A stretch of 64,000 nucleotides of DNA from Rhizobium sp. FKL33. Lineage in GTDB: Bacteria > Pseudomonadota > Alphaproteobacteria > Rhizobiales > Rhizobiaceae. The notes under the pieces were generated by a model that was not told the DNA's origin, did no database searches, and saw only the letters and a program-made list of their open reading frames with translations. Both the position numbers and the translations under genes were made by a program. Location: the NCBI RefSeq assembly GCF_005222915.1, contig NZ_STFX01000006.1, positions 62,001-126,000 on the forward strand, written 5' to 3'. Positions 7,812-18,873 of the stretch are shown here, piece by piece (position 1 is the stretch's first letter; each line of letters starts with the position of its first letter).

Positions 7812-8144
7812 TCAGAGAATCTGCACCGGCTTTGTCCACTGAATAAGAACCACGCAGCCCTCCTGCGAGGCGACTGAGTGAACAGTGCCCTCGGCATTGG
7901 CGACCAGCGATCCCGGGCCGTAATGGCCATGTTCATCGGTTTGCGAGCCTTCGAGCACCAGTATCGTTTCAAGGCCGGCATGCAGATGCTTCGGCACGCT
8001 CGCGCCGGGAGCGTAGCGCAGCAGCGCCAGTTCCGGCTCGCCGCGCACCAGACGGCAAATTTCCACCCCCTCGCGAAAATATTCAAAAGCGCAATGACGC
8101 CAGTCGCCCGACAGGAAGTTCGCGATATGCAGCGGTTCAGTCAT
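7812..8144 (-). CDS. Small cupin (ChrR-like) protein
   Basis: A single-domain cupin of about 110 residues, resembling the C-terminal cupin of ChrR anti-sigma factors. The metal-binding motif 1 is visible as [15 protein letters not shown] (two His and one Glu), and motif 2 as the GTVHSV segment with its His. The start chosen is the ATG at 8144 (MTEPLHIAN), overlapping the end of the upstream hydrolase gene by 8 bases; the frame also extends to 8165. This is the last gene of the BMP-transporter operon. Cupins in amide-catabolic operons may be small-molecule binding or isomerising proteins, but no specific reaction can be assigned. Confidence 0.82.
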
Positions 8145-8802
8145 CAAGGGCCTCGACAATCTCATCGACAGTGGCCGCCCATCCGACGATCGCGCCTTGC
8201 GCGGTGATCATGTCGATGGCGGCTATCTTGAATTCGGGGAAATAGCTTTCGGTGGCGTCGGTGGCGAGAATGCACTCATAGCCACGGTCATTGGCCTCGC
8301 GCATGGTGGTTTGCACACAGACTTCGGTGGTCACGCCGGCGAACACCAGTTGGGAGACGCCCTTCGCCGCCAGGATGTCGCCGAGCGGCGTCGCATAGAA
8401 AGCCCCCTTGCCCGGCTTGTCGATGACCGTTTCACCCTCGACCGGATAGAGCTCGTCCACGATATCGGCGCCCGCTTCGCCCGCGATCAAAATGCGGCCC
8501 ATGGGACCGGGATCACCGATGCGCAGGGACGGTTTGCCCCGCGTCCGTTTCGCCGGAGGGCAGTCGGAGAGGTCTGCCGCATGGCACTCCCGGGTGTGGA
8601 TGACCGGCAGTCCCGCCTTGCGAAAGCCGGCAATCAGCCTGGCGGTGGCGGGAATGATGGCCTGAAGCAGGGAGACGTCGTTGCCGAGCGTTGCGCCGAA
8701 ACCGCCCGGCTCGATGAAATCGCGCTGCATGTCGATGACGATGAGCGCCGTTTTCGCCGGAACCAGGGTGAAATCGAAGGGTCGCGCCTTGATCGTCGCC
8801 AT
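8137..8802 (-). CDS. Isochorismatase-fold cysteine hydrolase (possible triuret hydrolase)
   Basis: An amidohydrolase of the isochorismatase-like cysteine hydrolase superfamily, 221 residues. The catalytic triad is readable as Asp24 (VIDMQRDF), Lys129 (IDKPGKGAF) and Cys162 (GVTTEVCV); Gln202 occupies the place of the substrate-binding Gln of biuret hydrolase. It is clearly a paralogue of the BiuH-like protein two genes away, sharing [10 protein letters not shown] and the IDKPGKG loop. Because triuret is hydrolysed to biuret by a BiuH paralogue (TrtA) in known bacteria, this protein is a candidate for that step; a ureidoacrylate or other ureide hydrolase is the alternative. Its start overlaps the ATPase stop by one base (TGATG), indicating translational coupling. 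Confidence 0.87.
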
Positions 8803-10340
8803 CAGTGATGTCCCGCCATGTGTTTCCCGATCTCGCCGATATCAGCGCCCGCCGCCTGGGTTTCAAAGACGACGGATCCTTCCGACATAACCAGAATGCG
8901 ATCAGAAAGCTCAAGGATCTCGTCGAGATCCTCGCTGATCAGCAGCACCGCCGCGCCTGCGTTGCGGGCGGCCATGATGCGGGCGCGGATATCGGCGACC
9001 GCCGAGAAATCCAGCCCGAAACAGGGGTTGGCGATGAGAAGGAGATCGACCTCTCCGTTGAGTTCGCGCGCGAGCACGGCGCGCTGCACATTGCCGCCCG
9101 ACAAGGAGGATATCGGCGTATCGAGCGAGGCTGTCTTCACCTTGTATTCGCCGACCAGCCGGGCGGCCAGCGCCGCCATGCGGCGGCTTTCAAGCCAGAA
9201 CTTCGATGCGCCGGCGGCAAAGTCGAAATCACGGAAGAAGATGTTTTCGGCGACGCTCATCTTGGGCGCGCAGGCGTTGCGCAGCGGCTCTTCCGGCAGA
9301 AAGCGCACATTCAGCGCTCTCACCTCGCCGCGGGTGGCGCGAAATGACGCCTCTCCGACCCGGATCTGGCCCGCGGACAGCGGACGCTGGCCTGAAAGCA
9401 TTTCCATCAGCTCCATCTGGCCATTGCCGGAAATGCCGGCGATGCCGACGATCTCGCCGGATTTGACCTGGAGATCGGCGATGTCGATCGTCTTCAGGCC
9501 CGAGCGATCTGACGCCTTCGCGCCTGATATCTTAAGAACGGGTTTGCCGTCGATCGCCACACGGGCGGCTGGCCGCACGAGCTCCTTTTCACCGATCATC
9601 ATCGCGGCCATGTCCGCGGTTGAGAGATCGGAAACCTTGCCGCCGCCGACATGCTCGCCCCGCCTGAGAACGGAGACTTCGTCGGCGAAAGCCGTCACCT
9701 CGCGGAATTTGTGGGAAATCATCAGGCAGGTGAGGTCTCCGGCTGTGGTCAAACCGCGGACCATGCCCAGCAATTCATCCGCCTCGGCCGGTGTCAGCAC
9801 AGACGTCGGCTCGTCGAGAATGAGAAACCGGCGGCCGAGATAGAGCTGCTTGAGCAATTCCAGCTTCTGTTTTTCCCCGGCCGCCAGTCTGCCGACTGGT
9901 ACGTCCAGGGGAACGGCAAACGGCATGGTGGACATGAAGGCCGAAAGCGCCGCGCGCTCCCTCTGCCAATCGATGCGGGAGGGGGCGTCGTTACGGCTGA
10001 TCACCAGGTTTTCCGCCGCCGTCAGCGACGGCGCCAGCGTGAAGTGCTGATAGACCATGCCCAGGCCGAGATCATGCGCCGCGCGCGGATCCGGCACCTC
10101 CACTTCACGCCCCTCGACCGCCATTTGCCCCGACGTCGGGTGATAAAAGCCCATCATGCATTTGACGAGGGTGGATTTACCGGCGCCGTTTTCGCCGAGA
10201 AGAACGTGAAAAGACCCGGCCGCGACCCGGATCGACACATCCTTTAAGGCCGTGAAAGATCCGAAGCGCATGGTCATGCCGATCGTCTCGACGCCGATGG
10301 CGCGCGACGGCGTATCCTGCTGAAGCGGCGGAACTCTCAT
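8802..10340 (-). CDS. BMP-type ABC importer, double ATP-binding protein
   Basis: A 512-residue duplicated ATPase of the carbohydrate/nucleoside uptake type (as in NupA, YufO and RbsA). The first nucleotide-binding domain is complete, with Walker [10 protein letters not shown] near residue 54, and Walker [11 protein letters not shown] near residue 174. The second has a degenerate Walker A (GISGNGQME) and a good signature ([16 protein letters not shown]), the usual asymmetry for this family. It powers the two permeases encoded upstream. The ATG overlaps the biuH stop by 4 bases (ATGA). Placement of the ATPase between two ureide hydrolases ties the transported substrate to them. Confidence 0.93.
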
Positions 10341-11014
10341 GGCAGCGCCTCGACGAATTTAGCGCTGTCCGAGACCGAGCCGAACACGCCGCCCTGCATC
10401 TTCACCATCTTGATGGCGGCGGCGTGGTTGCCGGGGTCGGTGGCGGCGCAGCAATCCTCCAGCAGCAGGCATTCGAAGCCGCGGTCATTGGCTTCGCGCA
10501 TCGTGGTGTGCACGCAGACATCGGTGGTGATGCCCGAGAGTACGATATTCTCGATGCCGCGCGTGCGCAGGAGCAATTCGAGATCGGTGGCGCAGAAGGA
10601 GCCTTTGCCGGGCTTGTCGATGATCGGCTCGCCGTCCAGCGGCTTGAGTTCATCGATGATCTCCCAGCCGGGCTCTCCGCGCACCAGGATGCGGCCGCAA
10701 GGCCCGGCGTCGCCGATGCCGGCCCCGATCTGACGCGACCGCCAGCGCTTGTTCGGCGGCAGATCGGAAAGGTCTGGCCGATGGCCTTCGCGGGTATGGA
10801 TGATGTGATAGCCCTTGGCGCGCATGGCGGTGAGCACCGTCTTGATCGGCTCGATCGGCGCCCGGGTGAGCGAGATGTCGTAACCCATCTTGTCGACATA
10901 ACCGCCCGGACCGCAGAAATCCGTCTGCATGTCGATGATGATCAAAGCGGTGTTTTCCGGCCTGAGATCGCCGTTATAGGGCCAGAGATAGGGATCGGCC
11001 TGAATGGTGGTCAT
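10337..11014 (-). CDS. biuH: Biuret amidohydrolase (BiuH-like)
   Basis: Predicted to hydrolyse biuret to allophanate and ammonia in the cytoplasm. The protein matches the Rhizobium leguminosarum enzyme along its full length as far as I know that sequence ([49 protein letters not shown]). Counted from the upstream ATG at 11026, the catalytic residues fall at Asp32, Lys138 and Cys171, with Gln211. This is a constant offset of four from Asp36, Lys142, Cys175 and Gln215 of BiuH. The ATG at 11014 is preferred because GGAG lies just upstream of it. It sits inside an ABC-importer operon between permease and ATPase. Allophanate hydrolase is not in the window, so the product must be handled elsewhere. 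Confidence 0.9.
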
Positions 11015-11053
11015 CAAGGTCTCCATGCGCTTGCCGCCGGTTGCGGCGCGTGT

Positions 11054-11977
11054 CTATTTGGTGATGCTGAGTTCGCCCGGAGCCGACGGCATCGCCTGGG
11101 TCGGCGAGCTGGTGGCGACGAGCAGCCCAAGGGTGAGCACGTAAGGCGCGGCGTAAAACAGATAGTAGCCGCTGGTGACGCCGACCGATTGCAGCGCCGG
11201 ACCGAGCGCTCCCGCCCCTCCGAACAGCAAGGAGGCGTAGAGGCAATTGACCGGGTTCCAGCGGGCGAAAATGACGAGCGCCACCGCCATCAAACCCTGG
11301 CCGGAGGAAATGCCTTCGTTCCAGCTGCCGGGATAGTAGAGCGAGAGATAGGCTCCGCCGACGCCTGCGAGCGCGCCTCCGGCCGCCGTGGACCAGAGCC
11401 GTACGCGGTTCACATCGATGCCGATGGCGCGGGCGGCGTCAGCGCTGTCGCCGGTGACGCGGATGGTCAGGCCGATGCGGGTGTTCTTCAGCATCCAGGC
11501 CGCGGCGAATGCCAGGACGACGCCAACAAGGAACAGTACATTGACGTTGAGCGCCGCCTCGACCTGTGGAATGCCCGACCAGAAACCGAGCGGAATGGCC
11601 GGAAGATCCGGCGCGACGGGCTGCACATAGGGCTTTCCGAAGAAGAAGGCGAGCCCGGTTCCGAAGATCATGAGAGCGATGCCGATGGCGATGTCGTTGA
11701 CGCGCGGCAGCTTGCAGATCCAACCATGCAAGAGGCCAAACAGCAGGCCGGCAAAGGCTGCCGCGAGCGTTCCCAGCCAGGGAGAGCCCGTGTGATAGGC
11801 CACCGCATAACCGCTCATGGCGCCGAAGACCAGCGTGCCCTCGAGACCGAGATTGATGCGTCCCGAACGTTCCGTCAGGCACTCCCCGATCGAGACGAAG
11901 ATGAAGGGGGTGGAGACGCGGATCGCGCCGCCGAGAATGGCGAGGGGCACGCCCCAGAGGCCGATATCATCCGTCAT
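11054..11977 (-). CDS. BMP-type ABC importer permease 2
   Basis: Inner-membrane permease of the branched-chain/nucleoside type (BPD_transp_2), 307 residues with about eight hydrophobic segments. Typical family segments are GRINLGLEGTLVFGA near residue 42 and GLMAVALVIFARWNP near residue 245. The ATG at 11977 is chosen because it overlaps the stop of permease 1 by 4 bases (ATGA). The frame stays open for another 170 codons upstream, but that part is only the shadow of permease 1. It pairs with permease 1 to form the translocation pore. Confidence 0.92.
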   Translation of the reverse strand: MTDDIGLWGVPLAILGGAIRVSTPFIFVSIGECLTERSGRINLGLEGTLVFGAMSGYAVAYHTGSPWLGTLAAAFAGLLFGLLHGWICKLPRVNDIAIGIALMIFGTGLAFFFGKPYVQPVAPDLPAIPLGFWSGIPQVEAALNVNVLFLVGVVLAFAAAWMLKNTRIGLTIRVTGDSADAARAIGIDVNRVRLWSTAAGGALAGVGGAYLSLYYPGSWNEGISSGQGLMAVALVIFARWNPVNCLYASLLFGGAGALGPALQSVGVTSGYYLFYAAPYVLTLGLLVATSSPTQAMPSAPGELSITK

Positions 11978-13083
11978 GCCTGCCTCCGTTCGAAAGCCGC
12001 CAGAAAGCGCAACCGGCCCTGAAACGAGTCCGACAGGAGGATGGCGATAAAGACCATGCCCTCCAGCACCAGAACCGTCGCATCGGGCAGATCCATTCGC
12101 CGCTGCACGAGCCCGCTCGACGCCTCGAAACCGGCAAGAAGAATTGCGGCGGGAATGATGGCCAGGCCATTGTGTCGAGCGAGAAAGGCGATGAGGATGC
12201 CCGTGTAACCATAGCCTGCGGCCAGCGAGGCGTTGGCCGAACCATGAACGGCCGCGACTTCGAACATGCCCGCCAGGCCCGCGAAAGCGCCGCCGAGAGC
12301 CGTGAAGCCGATGGCCAACACCGCCGTCGGCAGGCCCTGGATCTGGGCGGCGCGGGCGTTGCCGCCGACGATGCGGGCCGCAAAGCCGAGGGTCGTCCGC
12401 TCGATCAGCACCCAGCTGACAAGGCAGGCGAGAATGCCGACCGCGAGGCCCCAATGCACGCCCATTCCCGGAATTTCGCCGATCCGCCACGCCTCAGGCA
12501 GTGGCGCTGTCGAGGGCTTGTTCAAGCTGGCGGGATCGCGGAAAGGACCTTCGATCAGGTGGTTCATCAGCGCGATGGCGATATAGGCCATCAACAGGCT
12601 TGAGATGGTCTCGTTGACGCCGCGCAACTGGCGAAGCGCGCCGACCCCGCCGATCCACAGACCGCCGACGGCCATGGCGGCTATCGCCATAAAGCCAATG
12701 CCGAGGGGCGCCGGCAAACCCGGCGCAAGCATGGCGACAACGCCCGCCGCGACGCCGCCCAGCACGATGGCCCCCTCCCCGCCGATGATCACGAGACCGA
12801 GCCGCGCCGGCAGCGCGACGCAGAGGGCGGCGAGCAGAAGCGGCGCCGCCCGCGCCAAAGTGTTGGTCCACGAAAAGGCGGTGCCGAAGCCGGCTTTGTA
12901 GACCAGAAGATAGAATTCGACGGGCGATTTGCCGAGCGCGGCCAGAAAGATGGCGAACGCCGCCAATCCAGCCAGCAAGGCCCCGAGCGGCAGAAGCGCC
13001 GCCTCAATGCGTCGCGCCGCGGCTTCGCTGAGGAAGCCCGTCCGTCCGGCGAACGCAGCCGCCTGTTCGACCTGCATGCTCAT
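11974..13083 (-). CDS. BMP-type ABC importer permease 1
   Basis: First permease of the importer, 369 residues, BPD_transp_2 type. A cytoplasmic N-terminus of about 35 residues is followed by many hydrophobic helices. Landmarks are GLVIIGGEGAIVLGGVAAG near residue 95, LRGVNETISSLLMAYIA near residue 152 and GGNARAAQIQGLP near residue 245, the conserved EAA-like loop of nucleoside permeases. The ATG at 13083 follows a GGAGGG site; the open frame upstream of it belongs to the shadow of the binding-protein gene. It starts 30 bases after the binding protein. Confidence 0.92.
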   Translation of the reverse strand: MSMQVEQAAAFAGRTGFLSEAAARRIEAALLPLGALLAGLAAFAIFLAALGKSPVEFYLLVYKAGFGTAFSWTNTLARAAPLLLAALCVALPARLGLVIIGGEGAIVLGGVAAGVVAMLAPGLPAPLGIGFMAIAAMAVGGLWIGGVGALRQLRGVNETISSLLMAYIAIALMNHLIEGPFRDPASLNKPSTAPLPEAWRIGEIPGMGVHWGLAVGILACLVSWVLIERTTLGFAARIVGGNARAAQIQGLPTAVLAIGFTALGGAFAGLAGMFEVAAVHGSANASLAAGYGYTGILIAFLARHNGLAIIPAAILLAGFEASSGLVQRRMDLPDATVLVLEGMVFIAILLSDSFQGRLRFLAAFERRQA

Positions 13084-13112
13084 GGTCTGCCCTCCGGTCT
13101 TCAACCGCTGTT

Positions 13113-14237
13113 TCAGGAGGTGGAGCCGACGACGCCTTCCACGAGGTAGTCCATGCTTTCGAGCGCGACATCCGTCTCGACGAAGGCCTGCCCCGCAGTC
13201 GCCACGACCTTGCCCTTGTTGTCCTTGAGCGGGCCCTTGATGGCGGCGAAACCACCCTTGAGGATCTCGGCTTTGACCGCTTCGAACTGAGTGCGGGCCG
13301 CTTCGGAGACGGCCGGGCCGAGCGGGCTCATCTTGATGAATCCGTCGGCGAGGCCGCCGCGCACGAAATTGTCGATCGTTCCGCCCGACAGCGTCGTCTT
13401 GACCATGTCGGTGTACACCTTGGCCCAGTTCCATTCGGCGCCGGTAAGATACTTTTCCGGCGCAAGCGCGCTCTGGTTGGCATGGTAACCGCAGAGATAC
13501 ATTCCGCGGCCCGCGCCGGTTTCCATCACCACCTTGGGACCGTCCACATGGCAGGTGACGACATCGACGCCCTGATCGGCGAGCGCATTGACGGCCTCGG
13601 CTTCCTTCACCGCCAGCGACCATTCGCCGGTGAAGATGACCTGGCAGGTGATGGTGGGATCGACAGCGCGCGCGCCGAGCAGGAAGGAATTGATGTTGAG
13701 CAGCACCTGGGGAATGGGCTTGGCGGCCACGAAACCAATCTTCTTGGACTTGGTCGCATGGCCGGCGGCGATGCCGTTGAGATACTGACCCATGCCGATA
13801 TGGCCGAAATAGGACCCGACATTCTTGGGCTTGTCGGGGGTCCACAGGCCGCCGCAATGCTCGAAACGAACGGCCGGGTTTTTCGGCGCCAAAGCCAGGA
13901 TATGCGGATCGAAATAGCCGAAGGATGTCGGGAAGAGCAGCGTCGCGCCGTCGAAGCCGATCATGCTTTCCATGGTCTTCTGAACGTCGACGGTTTCGGG
14001 AACCTGTTCCTCTTCGACCACGGTGACGCCTTCGATCGCCTTGACCGCGGCGGCGCCTTCGGCATGCGACTGGTTATAACCGAAATCGTCCTTGGGGCCC
14101 ACATAGATGAAGCCGACCGTCAGCCCGGCGGCGCGCGCCGGGGCTGCGGGCAAAAGTCCGGAAAGGGCGGCTGCGCCGGCGAGACCGGCAGTGGTGTGAA
14201 GAAACTGGCGGCGATTGGGCATCAGGATCTTGGACAT
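13113..14237 (-). CDS. BMP-family substrate-binding lipoprotein-like protein (Tat-exported)
   Basis: Periplasmic binding protein of the Bmp/Med family (relatives bind nucleosides, but others take up unrelated small polar compounds). The start at 14237 gives a twin-arginine signal peptide: NRRQFLHTTAGLAG followed by a hydrophobic stretch and cleavage after ARA near residue 37. The mature protein opens with LTVGFIYVGPKDDFGYNQSH, the hallmark Bmp start. There is no lipobox Cys. It is the first gene of an operon continuing through two permeases, biuH, the ATPase, a second hydrolase and a cupin. The hydrolases suggest that its ligand is a ureide such as biuret or triuret (inference). Confidence 0.93.
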   Translation of the reverse strand: MSKILMPNRRQFLHTTAGLAGAAALSGLLPAAPARAAGLTVGFIYVGPKDDFGYNQSHAEGAAAVKAIEGVTVVEEEQVPETVDVQKTMESMIGFDGATLLFPTSFGYFDPHILALAPKNPAVRFEHCGGLWTPDKPKNVGSYFGHIGMGQYLNGIAAGHATKSKKIGFVAAKPIPQVLLNINSFLLGARAVDPTITCQVIFTGEWSLAVKEAEAVNALADQGVDVVTCHVDGPKVVMETGAGRGMYLCGYHANQSALAPEKYLTGAEWNWAKVYTDMVKTTLSGGTIDNFVRGGLADGFIKMSPLGPAVSEAARTQFEAVKAEILKGGFAAIKGPLKDNKGKVVATAGQAFVETDVALESMDYLVEGVVGSTS

Positions 14238-14356
14238 GCGAAAGTTCCCCGTTTTTGTTAGACCCACGGCGCGCCTCTGGTTCCGGACGCGTCTTGAATT
14301 TCCCGGCCAGTAATCCAGATGGACGCGCTTCTGTCTTGTGCTATGTTTTGGCTAGG

Positions 14357-14377
14357 CTGCTGCAAATAGTGCAGCAG
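14357..14377. promoter_or_regulatory. LysR-type operator, perfect inverted repeat with T-N11-A
   Basis: Two 8-base arms, CTGCTGCA and TGCAGCAG, are perfect inverted repeats around a 5-base centre. Symmetric T at 14361 and A at 14373 give the T-N11-A core of LysR-type operators. It lies 16 bases before the GTG of the LysR gene and between it and the divergent importer operon, where an autoregulating activator would bind. Confidence 0.72.
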
Positions 14378-14393
14378 GCGGGAAAGGCTGATC

Positions 14394-15302
14394 GTGCGTT
14401 ATCTCTCGTCCATCCGCTATATCGACGCCGTGGTGAAGGCGGGCTCGATCAGAGCCGCCGCCGATACGCTCGCCATCACGTCGACAGCCCTCAATCGCCG
14501 AATTCTGGCGATGGAGGAGGAGCTCGGCGTGCCGATTTTCGAACGCCTGCCGCATGGGGTGCGTCTGTCAGCCGCCGGTGAGATCTACATCCATCATATC
14601 CGCAATCAGTTGTCCGACATGGAGCGGGTGCGATCACAGATCGCCGACCTCTCGGGCGTCAGACGCGGACACGTCTCGATCGCCTGCAGCCAGGCGCTTC
14701 TGCCCTATTTCCTGCCGAGCCAGATCGCGCTCTATCGGAAGGAACATCCGAATGTGACCTTCGGCGTCCACCTGCGCGACCGCGAAGCCGCCGAGCAGGC
14801 GCTCGTCGATCACAGCGCCGATCTCGCCGTGGTGTTCGAGCCCGTTCGCCTCACGGATTTCATGACGCTGATCAGGGTGCGCCAACCGGTGCATGTCGTG
14901 ATGTCGCCGGATCACCCGCTGGCGTCGAAAACGACGTTGCGCCTCTCTGAATGCGTAGACCATCCGGTCTCACTGCCAACCACCGCCTACGGCGTCCGGC
15001 ATCTCCTGGACATTGCAATGCGCATCACCGGAGTCCGTATCGATCCGGTCATCCAGTCCGACAATTTCGAATTCCTCCGCAACCACGCGGTGGCGGAGAA
15101 CATCATCACCTTCCAGATTCCGATCGGCCTCTCCGATGAGACCTCGACGGGTCGGCTGATTTCCCGCCCCTTGGACAGTCGCGACGTGCCGGCCGGCATT
15201 CTCTATCTCGGCCAGTTGAAGGGCCGCACCCTCCCCGTCGCCGCCGCCCGCTTCGCCTCGCAACTTACGAGCGCGCTTGCAAGCCAGTTCGAAGTGTCGT
15301 GA
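14394..15302 (+). CDS. LysR-family transcriptional regulator of the ureide operon
   Basis: A 302-residue LysR regulator. The winged helix-turn-helix covers residues 1-60 (AGSIRAAADTLAITSTALNR, then EEELGVPIFERLPHGVRLSAAG), and the effector-binding domain of two alpha/beta lobes follows from about residue 90. It starts at GTG 14394 with GGAAAGG a few bases upstream. It is transcribed divergently from the BMP-importer/biuH operon, and a perfect T-N11-A palindrome lies between them, so control of that operon in response to a ureide or to nitrogen state is likely (inference). Relatives in the GbpR/PcaQ-like group often activate catabolic operons. Confidence 0.9.
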   Translation: MRYLSSIRYIDAVVKAGSIRAAADTLAITSTALNRRILAMEEELGVPIFERLPHGVRLSAAGEIYIHHIRNQLSDMERVRSQIADLSGVRRGHVSIACSQALLPYFLPSQIALYRKEHPNVTFGVHLRDREAAEQALVDHSADLAVVFEPVRLTDFMTLIRVRQPVHVVMSPDHPLASKTTLRLSECVDHPVSLPTTAYGVRHLLDIAMRITGVRIDPVIQSDNFEFLRNHAVAENIITFQIPIGLSDETSTGRLISRPLDSRDVPAGILYLGQLKGRTLPVAAARFASQLTSALASQFEVS

Positions 15303-15319: not shown

Positions 15320-16537
15320 CTATCCCGCCCTCGACGACGCCGGCTGACCATTCGCTTTCAGCAAGGCCATCAGCGCAGGTCCCAGCGAGAATTCGCCTTG
15401 CCGGGTCTTGGCGGTCAGACTGCGCAGATAGCCTCCGGCAGAGTTGATATGGCCAGACCGCTCCAGAATACAGGCTATGGCCGTGGCGGCATTTTCGGAT
15501 CCCATGACCTCACAAGCCTCCTGATAGGCCGAGGGGCTGACGCCCAGCATCGATCGAACCACGACGGCTGCCGCCATCAGGTCGCGCCAGTTCGCAATCA
15601 CGCCTCCCGGCCCATAATCGCCGATTTGCGGGCAAGCTCGCAGCACCAATCCGAGCGGAAAGGCTTTCAAGCCGGGGTGCAGAGTTTTCAGTTCTGGTGC
15701 AGCCCTTGCGCCCTGCTTTTTTTCTGGAGCGGGTTCAAGTTCATTGGTGGATTCGGTATTTGAATTCTGTATGTGACGCTCATTTTGATTGTCATTGCTG
15801 ATCATATTTTCAGATTTAAGCTGACTTTTCAGCGTCTTGGACACATCGTCCATTAAATGGCGCAGATGCCGCTCTAGATGTTCGACGGCTTCGGTGTCGG
15901 AATTGCGCGGGATACGCGCGACAATGGCGACATAGCGCTCTTCGAATTCCAGCCAATTGCCGTTCGCCTCCTCCTCGATCCCTGCTGAGATCAGCTTGCG
16001 CAGATCGCGACGCAATAGCGTCAGCCTTTCACGCGCTTTTCGGAGCTGTGCGGCTTCGACGGCGACCTTTTGGGCGAAGAGCGCCAGTTCATCGGCTCTG
16101 GCTAGCAAGGGTTCAAGGCTGAAACCGAAGGCCGTTTCAATGTCGCCGTCCTGTCCGCGTCGGGCATAGCGCTTGCCATTCGGGCTGTCGCGACGAATGA
16201 TCAATCCAGCCTCCACAAGCGCCGCCAGGGCGCGTCGAAGCGTCGCGCCGGAAATGCCGTTGGCGCGCAACGACAGCTGGGCATTTGACGGAAACACGAC
16301 AAGCCCCTGCCCGTCCGCCAGTTCCGGCTCGGGATAGAAGCTCAGCAATGCACTCAGTACGGCCAAAGGCCGGTCGTTGAGGGCTAACAGCGACTTGGCT
16401 TCGCAGACGTCGCGAAACACCTTCCACTTGTCGACCGCCCTGTCCCTGGGCGCTTCGCTCACATCGATCTGACGTTTGATCAGCGCAAGCTTCGCCGGCC
16501 GCCGCCCGAAGGGCGTCGTTATCTGTCCGATCCGCAT
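15320..16537 (-). CDS. repC: Plasmid replication initiator RepC
   Basis: Initiator of repABC replicons, 405 residues, acting on an origin inside its own gene. The N-terminal DNA-binding half contains KWKVFRDVCEAKSLLALNDR near residue 37 and winged-helix residues GATLRRALAALVEAGLIIR near 95. The C-terminal domain holds LRACPQIGDYGPGG near residue 305 and MGSENAATAIACILERSGHI near 345, both highly characteristic. It starts at ATG 16537, preceded by AAAGG. The 153-base gap to repB on the same strand holds the antisense RNA that limits its expression. The Asn/Ser/Glu-rich linker near residues 235-275 is encoded by the AT-rich putative origin. Confidence 0.97.
   Translation of the reverse strand: MRIGQITTPFGRRPAKLALIKRQIDVSEAPRDRAVDKWKVFRDVCEAKSLLALNDRPLAVLSALLSFYPEPELADGQGLVVFPSNAQLSLRANGISGATLRRALAALVEAGLIIRRDSPNGKRYARRGQDGDIETAFGFSLEPLLARADELALFAQKVAVEAAQLRKARERLTLLRRDLRKLISAGIEEEANGNWLEFEERYVAIVARIPRNSDTEAVEHLERHLRHLMDDVSKTLKSQLKSENMISNDNQNERHIQNSNTESTNELEPAPEKKQGARAAPELKTLHPGLKAFPLGLVLRACPQIGDYGPGGVIANWRDLMAAAVVVRSMLGVSPSAYQEACEVMGSENAATAIACILERSGHINSAGGYLRSLTAKTRQGEFSLGPALMALLKANGQPASSRAG
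15725..15850. other. Putative replication origin (oriV) inside repC
   Basis: This stretch of repC is clearly richer in A and T than the rest of the gene. It encodes a low-complexity linker and contains a short dyad around TTTTCAGATTTAAGCTGA. In characterised repABC plasmids the origin lies in an AT-rich region in the middle of repC, so this is the best candidate. The boundaries are approximate. Confidence 0.5.
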
Positions 16538-16596
16538 TCTCTTTCACCTTTCTAAAGGCAAAAGAAATCTATCCGCCAAACTGGCGCCGAATACGC

Positions 16597-16687
16597 TTGA
16601 CTAATTTTCGTGGGAATGCGATTCTCCAAGGGCTCAATCAAAGAGAGGCTTCCACGGCGGCGACGTTTTGGGGGCCTTTTTTCTTTT
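16597..16687 (+). ncRNA. Counter-transcribed RNA (ctRNA) of the repABC cassette
   Basis: Small antisense RNA encoded opposite the repB-repC spacer. A promoter-like TTGACT (16597-16602) is followed 17 bases later by GATTCT (16620-16625), so transcription would start near 16632. An intrinsic terminator follows: arms 16646-16653 and 16670-16677 pair over 8 positions (two G-U pairs), with a U-rich tail at 16677-16687. The expected RNA is about 55 bases, the size known for repABC ctRNAs. In that family it pairs with the repC leader and lowers RepC synthesis, setting copy number and incompatibility. Confidence 0.78.
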
Positions 16688-16690
16688 GCG

Positions 16691-17677
16691 TCAGTCTCCT
16701 CTGGTCTTCTTGTAGTCTTCGAAGAGTGCGTCCAGCCTCTTCGACAGAAAATCTCCGAAGGCAGCGGCCTCCGCCGATTTCAGGGAGAGAACGAATGTTT
16801 TCCTCCCAGCCTTCATGCTCGCGGCCATGTCGCCGCCCGATTTCGGCGCCCATTGCACGGCTGTCGCTTCCGGTTCTTCTCGCGCAGTCACCGTAGCCAG
16901 GGTCAGTTCGAAACGCTCATCCGACGCCAGCGCCCGCGCATCCGCTTTTCCAAGTCGGGTGATCGCAGCGGCCAGCGTCTTCGGCGTCAGCGCTTCCGAC
17001 AATGCCAGCCATTTCCGCCTGCCGATGCTGGGGGCCGATCCCACCAGCTTTATCAGCTCAGCAGGAACATTGGCGGCGACCGAGAGCATTTTGGACAGCT
17101 CGGTCTTGTCGGTCGACAGAGCCCTCATGATGATGTGTCGGGGGAAACCCTTTTGCTCCAGTGCAAGCGCAAAAGCGACGCGCTCGATATAGGACAGGTT
17201 CTTTCGTTCACCGTTTTCGATGCCCTGCGCAATCACCAACGACTGGTCGTCGAATTCTCGGATGACAGCCTTGACCTTGATGCCCAGCACCATGGCGGCC
17301 TTGAGCCGTCGATGCCCATAAGCGACCTGATAGCGCCCCTCCTCCGTGGGATGCGGACGCACGAGAATCGGCACTTCCTGTCCATTTTCCGCGATCGAGC
17401 GGACAAACGGATCGTCTTCACTGAACTCGATCTCTTCCAGACGGTCGCGCACGAAGGATGGATCGATCGAAGCGGGATCGAGATCCTGCACATGATGACC
17501 GGATTTCAGCGCCTCCTGCAGCGCCTTCGCCTCATCCTCCATCCGGCCCAAGGTCAGGGCCATGGACTTAACCGGACCTGCGGGGCCGCGCGGCTCTTCC
17601 CGATCATCGAAGTTGGCCGCGGCCAACCCCTCTACCGACTGCTGGAAGATTCCGCTGAGCGTCGTTCTCCTACTCAT
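16691..17677 (-). CDS. repB: Plasmid partition protein RepB (ParB family)
   Basis: Centromere-binding partition protein of the repABC cassette, 328 residues. The ParB/Srx nuclease-like fold holds QEVPILVRPHPTEEGRYQVA and YGHRRLKAA near residues 100-128. The helix-turn-helix region follows (LSYIERVAFALALEQKGFP and KTELSKMLSVAANVP, residues about 160-205), and the RepB C-terminal dimerisation region reaches residue 328. Its ATG overlaps the repA stop by 4 bases. One of the two parS copies lies inside its coding sequence, encoding the LAAAN of residues 18-22. RepB loads on parS and is moved by RepA. Confidence 0.97.
   Translation of the reverse strand: MSRRTTLSGIFQQSVEGLAAANFDDREEPRGPAGPVKSMALTLGRMEDEAKALQEALKSGHHVQDLDPASIDPSFVRDRLEEIEFSEDDPFVRSIAENGQEVPILVRPHPTEEGRYQVAYGHRRLKAAMVLGIKVKAVIREFDDQSLVIAQGIENGERKNLSYIERVAFALALEQKGFPRHIIMRALSTDKTELSKMLSVAANVPAELIKLVGSAPSIGRRKWLALSEALTPKTLAAAITRLGKADARALASDERFELTLATVTAREEPEATAVQWAPKSGGDMAASMKAGRKTFVLSLKSAEAAAFGDFLSKRLDALFEDYKKTRGD
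17612..17627. other. parS centromere site, copy 1 (inside repB)
   Basis: GTTGGCCGCGGCCAAC, a perfect 16-base palindrome fitting the GTT-N10-AAC pattern of repABC parS sites. It is identical to the copy upstream of repA. It lies near the 5' end of repB and is therefore constrained both as codons and as a RepB-binding site. Confidence 0.85.
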
Positions 17678-18873
17678 TTGCGCCCCCAGACCTTGAGGAT
17701 ATTGGCAAGCACTTCGGAATTGGCGGCGTTGACCGATTCCAGCGCGCGGTCATAGGTGGACTTCCGCACTTGGCCGCGCTCGATTTCGTAAAGCGTTTGC
17801 TTGGAAAGGCCAGCATCGGAAATCGCCGTCGACTTGAGGATCGTGGCCGTGAGCACATCGTCGGAGAACAGGCTGCGCAACAGCGCCACGATTTGCGACT
17901 GCGGGCCATCGAACGGCTCGTGGCGCGTCACGACATATTTGATAAAGTCGTGCGAAAGATCGCCGCCCGCCTTGCGGACCACCGCAAGCAGATCCGATGT
18001 CATCAGCAGAAACTGCGACATCGAGGCGACGTCGACCATCTGCGGATGAATGGTGATCAGCATGGCGGTCGAGGCGCACACAGCGCCCAGCGTTAGATAG
18101 CCGAGCTGCGGCGGGCAATCGATGACGACGATGTCGTAATCGGCCTCCACCTCGGCGATCGCCGCGCCGACGCGGCGGAAAAAAGGTTCGCTCTGCGTGT
18201 TCCGCCGATCGGCGAGCGCGCGCGGCGTCTCATGCTCGAACTCCATCAGTTCGAGATTGCCCGGCACCAAGTGGAGACCATCGAAATAGGTCTTGCGGAT
18301 GATGTCTTTAAGGCTGCGCCGTTCATTGTCGTAGCGGATCGCGCCATAAAGGGTGTCGCCGTCGCGCAGATCGAACTCAGGCTGTACGCCGAGCATAGAA
18401 GACAGCGACGCCTGCGGGTCGAGGTCAACCGCCAGCACACGATAGCCGCTCAGCGCCAGAAACTCCGCGAGATAAAGCGTCGTCGTGGTCTTTGCGGAGC
18501 CGCCCTTGAAATTGGTGACCGCAATCGTTTGCAGCTTCTCGCCCGGACGACGATGCGGCAGGAATGTCAGGGCATCCTTCGGCTTGACGGCAGCGAGATG
18601 CCGCCTCAGCTCGTTGATCTGCGCCAGCGTGTAGGAGCGTCGACCGCTGCTGGTGACATCCGGCGCCGGTCCTTTTCCGTCCAGCGACAGCTGGCGCAGA
18701 TACCCATCGGAGACGCCGATCAGCTGCGCGGCTTCGCCGGAAGAGAATGTGCGGAGGTTTTTCTGCGACTGCGGCGGAAACAGATGTTCCGACAGGAGTT
18801 TCAATTGGCGCGAAAGCTGTTTAGCCTGGCGCTCGATACGAACATCGGTCGTCGCAACGGTGTTTGCGGTCAA
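17674..18873 (-). CDS. repA: Plasmid partition ATPase RepA (ParA family)
   Basis: Walker-type partition ATPase and autorepressor of the repABC operon, 399 residues. An N-terminal MerR-like DNA-binding part (TFSSGEAAQLIGVSDGYLRQ, residues about 42-61) precedes the deviant Walker A motif NFKGGSAKTTTT near residue 120, the A' motif VLAVDLDPQASLS near 147 and VVIDCPPQLG near 250. The start is TTG at 18873, supported by AAGGAA eight bases upstream. Translation of repB is coupled to it by a 4-base overlap. A parS site lies 113 bases upstream of the start. Confidence 0.97.
   Translation of the reverse strand: MTANTVATTDVRIERQAKQLSRQLKLLSEHLFPPQSQKNLRTFSSGEAAQLIGVSDGYLRQLSLDGKGPAPDVTSSGRRSYTLAQINELRRHLAAVKPKDALTFLPHRRPGEKLQTIAVTNFKGGSAKTTTTLYLAEFLALSGYRVLAVDLDPQASLSSMLGVQPEFDLRDGDTLYGAIRYDNERRSLKDIIRKTYFDGLHLVPGNLELMEFEHETPRALADRRNTQSEPFFRRVGAAIAEVEADYDIVVIDCPPQLGYLTLGAVCASTAMLITIHPQMVDVASMSQFLLMTSDLLAVVRKAGGDLSHDFIKYVVTRHEPFDGPQSQIVALLRSLFSDDVLTATILKSTAISDAGLSKQTLYEIERGQVRKSTYDRALESVNAANSEVLANILKVWGRK

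Follow-up and report, generated by a model that had tools for sequence, protein, structure and literature searches.

Biuret and triuret occur as impurities in fertiliser and may also arise from urate oxidation (PMC7948467, PMC12625717). Clusters of trtA, biuH, and atzF were published in 2020 for the Herbaspirillum TrtA-BiuH-AtzF pathway (accessible text of PMC7948467), and biuH and trtA beside "bmpA-nupABC" were reported in 2025 in nitrifiers, where atzF is also present and the importer is labelled a nucleoside transporter (accessible text of PMC12625717). Rhizobium leguminosarum (johnstonii) 3841 already has its BiuH gene on pRL10 in an operon ordered BMP binding protein, permeases, BiuH, ATPase, TrtA, and cupin. 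The AtzRSTUVW system of Pseudomonas sp. ADP combines a LysR regulator and a BMP importer near ureide catabolism, and its AtzT protein binds guanine and 2-hydroxyatrazine according to the accessible text of PMC6834077. The enzymes of biuret and triuret hydrolysis are known; no importer shown to carry either compound was found in the literature searched.

We analyzed a plasmid-borne, probable biuret/triuret gene set of Rhizobium sp. FKL33 (7812-15302, adjoining repABC) within the window, the whole 64,000-nt stretch of DNA studied. Its order is BMP binding protein-permease-permease-BiuH-ATPase-TrtA-cupin, with a divergent LysR gene. The same order is found in strain 3841, whose BiuH, TrtA, and BMP proteins are 81%, 73%, and 70% identical to those of the window, respectively. 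The 3841 operon additionally contains atzD and a nitrilase-family "formamidase" gene, both missing from the window, and its divergent gene is GntR, whereas that of the window is LysR. Both hydrolases, with the same specificity residues, are shared with the Herbaspirillum pathway, but the operon of the window lacks atzF, and the decarboxylase TrtB, known by name only in the accessible text, is not matched to the cupin of the window. The BMP importer adjoins biuH and trtA as in the nitrifier clusters, a likeness of description, not of sequence. AtzRSTUVW has a different gene order without hydrolases between its importer genes, and its LysR and BMP proteins are 43% and 36% identical to ours. The 3841 operon, the published trtA-biuH-atzF clusters, and the nitrifier clusters contradict the original prediction of a new nitrogen-scavenging system. 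The type of gene set is already known from other bacteria, and nitrogen scavenging of the known biuret/triuret type is most likely the role of the operon; the importer clade with its pocket and the TrtA-linked cupin go further.

Organization and regulation of the operon

All eight genes were found in the order and at the positions originally predicted. On the minus strand lie the genes of the BMP-family periplasmic substrate-binding protein (13113-14267, ATG start probably at 14237; PF02608 with a TAT signal), permeases 1 (11974-13083) and 2 (11054-11977; both BPD_transp_2, PF02653), the Isochorismatase-domain hydrolases BiuH (10337-11026) and TrtA (8137-8802), an ABC ATPase with two nucleotide-binding domains (8802-10340; two ABC_tran stretches, PF00005), and a Cupin_7 protein (7812-8165; PF12973). 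The LysR-type regulator (14394-15302) is encoded on the plus strand. Four-base overlaps join permease 1 to permease 2 and BiuH to the ATPase, and the ATPase and TrtA genes overlap by 1 base; the TrtA/cupin overlap spans 29 bases and would shrink to 8 with a cupin start at the second Met. The predicted 4-base and 1-base overlaps are thus real, but "throughout" was too strong because gaps of 29 and 27 bases separate BMP from permease 1 and permease 2 from BiuH, respectively. Two Agrobacterium plasmids matched the whole stretch of the gene set at 80% DNA identity over 100%, and the identical gene order recurs in many genomes; on this basis, the gene pattern is beyond chance. A tRNA search of the 64,000-nt window found none.

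The divergent promoter region contains a perfect inverted repeat, CTGCTGCA-N5-TGCAGCAG, with a T-N11-A core (14357-14377, no strand assigned), which is a putative LysR operator. A degenerate form of this motif was present in 15 of the 17 LysR-divergent relatives examined. From this repeat, the regulator, of the AtzR kind, would control the operon, and its effector is probably a pathway ureide. The AtzR kinship of the regulator, the name TrtA for the second hydrolase, the TrtA-bound cupin, and the absence of atzF from the operon were not part of the original prediction.

The TrtA-linked cupin

We compared 42 operons, comprising the window, four named plasmids, and even samples (43 rows, with L122 merged into L108, which it overlaps). 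Some loci recur across samples: L163 equals L009, and L146 and L187 apparently equal L022 and L098 (contigs of equal length, identical TrtA). Among the loci examined, the cupin subfamily was seen only together with TrtA, in 18 of the 31 operons with TrtA and in 0 of the 11 without it; the TrtA counted for L108 sits in a neighbouring opposite-strand unit with a second BMP. His60, His62, Glu66, and His96 were invariant in 36 cupin sequences, and the structure model had a pLDDT of 93.5.

The cupin takes the place held in some other lineages by an AtzH-like protein. The five AtzH-like stretches scanned in frame match PF11533, and one AtzH-like gene lies in an operon without TrtA (L116). The two proteins never occurred together in the 31 loci with TrtA, BiuH, and BMP (Fisher p = 1.6e-4, kinship ignored) or in 71 named loci (p = 1.5e-6, kinship ignored), which were drawn from the best 80 of 573 relatives, i.e. 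the nearest, after 9 of the 80 were excluded for short flanks. The pair was also absent from all 43 rows and from all 80 rows of the best 80 of 573. A sign test cannot reach significance, because the TrtA tree holds only two independent cupin/AtzH-like pairs on supported branches, and exclusivity after correction for phylogeny is weak.

On the basis of genomic context, we propose that the cupin decarboxylates carboxybiuret, the TrtA product. The accessible text of PMC12625717 leaves the decarboxylation step open in the absence of trtB, and no TrtB sequence or family was found in the accessible portions of the triuret-pathway literature. None of the 50 listed hits of a fold search bears the name decarboxylase, and they lend no support to the cupin as a named decarboxylase; among them are ChrR, cyclases, dioxygenases, KdgF, and a DMSP lyase. 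It is also quite possible, if short of probable, that the cupin, rather than being an enzyme, acts in ligand sensing or regulation as the cupin half of ChrR does, since ChrR anti-sigma factors are its nearest known relatives. However, it scored 49.1 bits against a ChrR cut-off of 124.5 and 41.7 against 300, with the ChrR models aligning through their C-terminal half only. The protein stands alone without the sigma-binding part, and the operon of the window has no sigma gene. Its tie to TrtA and its sharing of a position with the AtzH-like protein likewise argue against a sensor and are consistent with the proposed decarboxylase.

Cargo of the BMP-type importer

The Bmp domain, two permeases, and double ATPase constitute an ABC importer of the BMP/PnrA type. 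Most BMP systems carry purine bases or nucleosides. The importer of the window most likely serves biuret and triuret; its linkage across genomes points to shared function rather than to a particular cargo. In 240 genomes, BiuH/TrtA lay within 10 kb of every one of the 15 testable BMP homologues with 52% identity or more (own included); of the 76 with at most 43% identity, none had a BiuH/TrtA match (E up to 1e-30) nearby. In a phylum sample of 398 genomes, all 22 non-own BMPs with 58% identity or more were located no more than 3.3 kb from a BiuH of at least 74%. Every named TrtA locus with sufficient flank, 71 among the best 80 of 573, had both BMP and BiuH. BiuH occurred without such a BMP nearby in G402 and G591 (69% and 70% identity) and in L047 (85%), and in the class sample seven TrtA-like proteins (56-61% identity) sit outside such operons. 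Because TrtA is missing from 11 of the 42 operons and AtzD is present in just 4, biuret is the common denominator.

Cyanuric acid could be an alternative cargo where AtzD is present, as could the substrate of the nitrilase-family "formamidase". A gene for this "formamidase" is present in many BMP-BiuH operons. An importer primarily for cyanuric acid, in a copy that has lost AtzD, is unlikely. AtzD does lie inside the 3841 operon and in 16 of the 71 named loci (best 80 of 573), and the LysR protein resembles AtzR, for which the accessible text of PMC6834077 gives a cyanuric acid response. Against this reading stand the rarity of AtzD among the 42 operons, its absence from the FKL33 genome, and a pocket signature that is identical in loci with AtzD (18/18) and in most without it (87/94). 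A cyanuric acid operon with AtzD encoded elsewhere was rejected: AtzD was not found in the 98.2% complete assembly, and both positive-control plasmids were detected.

Still less likely is an importer of purine bases or nucleosides beside hydrolases that act on internal breakdown products. The BMP fold itself is in keeping with such a cargo; AtzT structures head the PDB fold search, this nearest solved relative binds guanine, and the accessible text of PMC12625717 calls such genes a nucleoside transporter. However, the BiuH-linked BMPs form a clade separate from the AtzT-like proteins, AtzT included (SH-aLRT 100, the only support in these quickly built trees; five rows are omitted, four with distant BMPs and one with a BMP truncated at the edge of its contig). 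With pocket positions taken from alignment to AtzT, a 36% identical protein, position 139 of the BiuH-linked BMPs is Gln or His, and position 165 is Gln or, in rare cases, Ser, Thr, or Leu; AtzT-like BMPs mostly carry Arg and Glu at these two sites. The BMP of the window carries Gln in place of AtzT Glu165, the guanine contact. A separate, BiuH-tied clade and this Gln therefore make purine cargo unlikely and place the protein outside the AtzT-like purine binders. The lack of BiuH/TrtA near the 76 distant BMPs points the same way, and no purine genes were recognised in BMP-BiuH operons in a search limited to reference genes. The putative B6 ABC transporter models NF047927-NF047930 gave 60.3/400, 169.8/400, 139.2/465, and 392.7/670 bits, all below their cut-offs.

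Hydrolases and the proposed pathway

The product of 10337-11026 is most likely a biuret hydrolase, BiuH, a prediction based on family score and residues. It scored 422.6 bits on NCBIfam NF050097 (cut-off 370), and the 3841 protein to which it is 81% identical is the crystallised biuret hydrolase, with a sequence identical to the 6azo chain. The predicted triad and Gln (D32, K138, C171, Q211) are present at a constant offset of 4 from D36, K142, C175, and Q215 of 3841 BiuH. The residues kept are D32, F37, Y43, Y49, K138, K141, S143, D169, C171, Q211, and V214, i.e. the triad, second Lys, Phe, and Gln together with the discriminating Tyr, Tyr, Ser, Asp, and Val.

The product of 8137-8802 is most likely a triuret hydrolase, TrtA, again as judged from sequence. 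Its best PDB match was Herbaspirillum TrtA, 6xix (E 6e-82; 277.9 bits, against 215.7 for 6xjm, the best BiuH entry), and it scored 259.1 bits on the BiuH model, below the cut-off of 370. The triad is D24, K129, and C162, exactly as predicted, and each of the seven TrtA residues taken for comparison from the accessible text of PMC7948467 (F35, N41, A134, E160, Y187, Q202, I205) is kept with the same number. Guanylurea hydrolase and RutB belong to the same isochorismatase-like family, but action of one or both hydrolases on another small amide (guanylurea, ureidoacrylate, or an N-carbamoyl compound) is very unlikely given the BiuH cut-off passed, the TrtA residues kept, the co-occurrence of the two proteins, and RutB-model scores of 125.7 and 107.1 bits, far under the cut-off of 377.95 (a comparison covering BiuH, TrtA, and RutB). 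Family cut-off, specificity residues, and linkage thus support the predicted biuret/triuret hydrolysis with a dedicated importer.

In the proposed pathway, periplasmic biuret, and probably triuret, would be bound by the BMP protein and taken up through the two permeases and double ATPase. TrtA would convert triuret to carboxybiuret and ammonia, and BiuH would convert biuret to allophanate and ammonia, two steps demonstrated by others in relatives and carried over to these proteins. Carboxybiuret would yield biuret and CO2 slowly alone or, as proposed, fast via the cupin; PMC7948467 puts its half-life without a catalyst at about 20 min. Allophanate would be finished by AtzF, whose gene lies elsewhere in the genome and would share an operon with one for a urea-carboxylase-type enzyme. 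Although atzF is present in 51 of the 71 named loci (best 80 of 573), the only match above the cut-off in the FKL33 genome (791.9 bits) is on another contig, C2, adjoining genes for the urea-carboxylase-type protein and two DUF1989 proteins; atzF directly downstream, as in Agrobacterium MA01, was thereby ruled out.

The linkage and pocket results single out one binding protein and one cupin, and they could correct an annotation common to many plant-associated bacteria. Our joint reading is tentative, with somewhat less than an even chance: the TrtA-linked cupin would represent a new enzyme family of metal-dependent carboxybiuret decarboxylases and substitute, without orthology, for an AtzH-like protein (possibly TrtB), while the BMP clade linked to BiuH would be the first importer with biuret and triuret as natural cargo. 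If both parts are true, the operon holds two unrecognised specificities.

Layout of the operon and identity of its hydrolases

Seven co-directional genes at 7812-14267 on the minus strand encode a BMP binding protein, two permeases, a hydrolase, a double ATPase, a second hydrolase and a small cupin. Both hydrolases have the isochorismatase fold and are separated by the double ATPase gene. A LysR gene (14394-15302) is divergent from the operon and is adjoined on its far side by repC, repB and repA (15320-18873), with 17 bases between the LysR end and repC; because these replication genes lie alongside, the operon is carried by a plasmid or chromid. Genes overlap by 4, 4 and 1 bases, with a longer overlap between the second hydrolase and cupin genes, suggesting translational coupling except at the two junctions with gaps (27 and 29 bases). 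The original prediction had correctly described these genes in this arrangement at 7812-15302. The LysR protein shares 43% identity with AtzR. A perfect inverted repeat was found at 14357-14377, in the interval between the LysR and BMP genes, and a degenerate form of it occupies the same interval in 15 of 17 LysR-divergent relatives (no match in L025 and L142).

The first hydrolase scored 422.6 bits on the biuret hydrolase (BiuH) model (cut-off 370) and retained every residue checked from the BiuH list in PMC7948467. It is 81% identical to BiuH of R. leguminosarum 3841, whose 233 residues are all identical to those of the crystallised chain 6azo. The second hydrolase scored 259.1 bits, below the cut-off, and its top solved-structure match was triuret hydrolase (TrtA) of Herbaspirillum. 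It has F35, N41, A134, E160, Y187, Q202 and I205 with the TrtA numbering unchanged; all except Q202, which BiuH shares, were selected as TrtA/BiuH differences in PMC7948467. In nine diverse TrtA from such operons, the checked residues were invariant except A134. By these scores, the best structure match and the retained residues, we assign the pair as BiuH and TrtA rather than two unexplained paralogues. A second BiuH-like protein (56% identity to BiuH) is encoded outside the operon on contig C43 of the same genome (L042, 9954-10784), with a branched-chain-type ABC permease gene close by.

Known relatives and the end of the pathway

The BiuH gene set of strain 3841 has the same gene order as the window operon, with atzD and a nitrilase-family "formamidase" in addition. 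The Agrobacterium plasmids of MA01 and RAC06 showed 80% DNA identity to the window operon with the whole stretch covered; in MA01, unlike the window operon, atzF lies next to it. The operon was found again on one Mesorhizobium and one Rhodobacteraceae plasmid. PMC7948467 places trtA, biuH and atzF operons in both Herbaspirillum and 3841; no atzF is annotated in the 20 kb of the 3841 plasmid pRL10 that were covered. According to PMC12625717, ammonia-oxidising bacteria have "bmpA-nupABC" together with biuH, trtA, trtB and atzF; comammox bacteria and ammonia-oxidising archaea have partial sets. AtzRSTUVW of Pseudomonas sp. ADP (PMC6834077), an earlier case from the same chemistry, combines a BMP importer with a LysR gene. 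The operon is thus an already known kind of system, and the claim that it was new does not hold in view of the 3841 operon and the clusters in PMC7948467 and PMC12625717.

No allophanate hydrolase (AtzF) is encoded in the window operon. The sole genome match above the cut-off, at C2:224356-226032 on another contig, combines Amidase and allophanate hydrolase C-terminal domains. Its locus (L043, 341-10048) contains NMT1-type ABC transporter genes, two DUF1989 genes, a urea-carboxylase-type protein and AtzF; the urea-carboxylase-type protein, beside AtzF, is a biotin carboxylase of 1200 residues that also has carboxyltransferase domains. We take this neighbourhood to be a guanidine or urea carboxylase operon. 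The locus probably serves guanidine or urea use and is likely the allophanate sink. AtzD was absent from the genome in a search that detected it on both control plasmids.

Linkage and binding pocket of the importer

At E up to 1e-15, BMP matches in 240 genomes of the class numbered 92 and fell into two sets, with at least 52% and at most 43% identity. In the former (n=16), 15 (own included) had a BiuH/TrtA match no more than 10 kb away and the remaining one was truncated by a contig end; in the latter, the count was 0 of 76. Across 398 genomes of the phylum, each of the 22 non-own BMPs of at least 58% had a BiuH of 74% identity or more no further than 3.3 kb away, and linkage was seen for two of three BMPs of 48-52% and neither of two of 37-39%. 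Named TrtA loci (best 80 of 573 relatives) had BMP and BiuH in 71 of 71 with enough flank. In a tree of 85 BMPs, the 43 linked ones formed one side of a branch (SH-aLRT 100). These genomic associations indicate that the BMP importer is dedicated to the BiuH/TrtA pathway. Together with family score and residues, they largely bear out the original biochemical reading of biuret/triuret hydrolysis with dedicated import.

The reverse linkage was incomplete: BiuH of 69%, 70% and 85% identity occurred without this importer, and seven TrtA-like proteins (56-61%) lay outside such operons. The 85% BiuH (L047) has AtzF and a 64% LysR close by, with no BMP importer of the linked clade in that stretch. Two BiuH-like proteins (L048, L049; 60-61%) stand beside a very different BMP importer (25-28% to references), which suggests that BiuH-BMP pairings originated more than once. 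At L035, L036 and L037, TrtA-like genes (56-63%) have genes of AtzE-like and AtzH-like proteins close by, and the stretch showed no BiuH; perhaps triuret is routed here via a carboxybiuret hydrolase, bypassing biuret. Two of the 76 distant BMPs (L056, L057; 41-42%), in units with their own permeases and ATPase, adjoin an isochorismatase-fold hydrolase (30-35% to BiuH/TrtA), possibly forming a related importer-hydrolase operon for another amide.

The binding pocket of the linked BMPs differs from that of AtzT-like ones. PMC6834077 lists Tyr45, Ser97, Phe98, Glu165, Trp194, Asn218 and Asn220 as guanine contacts of AtzT, with Asn169 and Thr139 behind them. Linked BMPs (n=20) carried Gln (17), Ser (2) or Thr (1) at position 165 and Gln (17) or His (3) at 139; AtzT-like BMPs (n=44, AtzT included) had Glu at 165 in 37 and Arg at 139 in 35. 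His218 and Asp220 do not discriminate because both sets share them. At 45, 139, 169, 218 and 220, AtzT departs from the majority of its own group; its Tyr45 and Asn169 also occur in the linked set. The signature Y-S-F-Q-Q-N-W-H-D was present in 105 of 112 BMPs of a larger set: 77 of 83 with TrtA, 18 of 18 with TrtA and AtzD, and 10 of 11 without TrtA. Finding a single pocket in each of these three contexts suggests that they share a ligand; the candidate would be biuret, the pathway compound usable in all of them. The best solved matches of the window BMP model (pLDDT 87) were AtzT structures. This importer clade, of a kind reported as a nucleoside transporter, very probably carries biuret. 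A literature search, with subscription journals mostly outside its coverage, found no described biuret or triuret importer.

A cupin associated with TrtA

The cupin has His60, His62, Glu66 and His96 invariant in 36 sequences, a confident predicted structure (pLDDT 93.5) and ChrR as its nearest named relative. By eye, among the matches listed in the class sample, all seven cupins of at least 52% (own included) adjoin TrtA and none of the others does. In 42 BMP-BiuH operons, counted with L122 merged into L108, the cupin occurred in 18 of 31 with TrtA versus 0 of 11 without, and an AtzH-like protein in 8 of 31 and 1 of 11, respectively; 5 of these 9 AtzH-like proteins, scanned in frame, matched PF11533. 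At L030, L107 and L113, the AtzH-like gene directly follows TrtA, in the slot of the cupin, and the two were never found together across the 42 operons and the named loci (best 80 of 573). The presumed substrate of AtzH is 1,3-dicarboxyurea (PMC6219798), which resembles carboxybiuret. Since TrtA makes carboxybiuret, the cupin, by analogy, would speed its decarboxylation and may be the missing decarboxylase of these operons. Against this, the cupin distribution tracks the tree, with only two supported independent contrasts; neither the cupin nor the AtzH-like protein is present in 5 of 31 operons with TrtA and 4 of 71 loci (best 80 of 573); and carboxybiuret decarboxylation also proceeds spontaneously, according to PMC7948467. 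The linked BMP importer clade and the TrtA-bound cupin are the points that stand out for testing.
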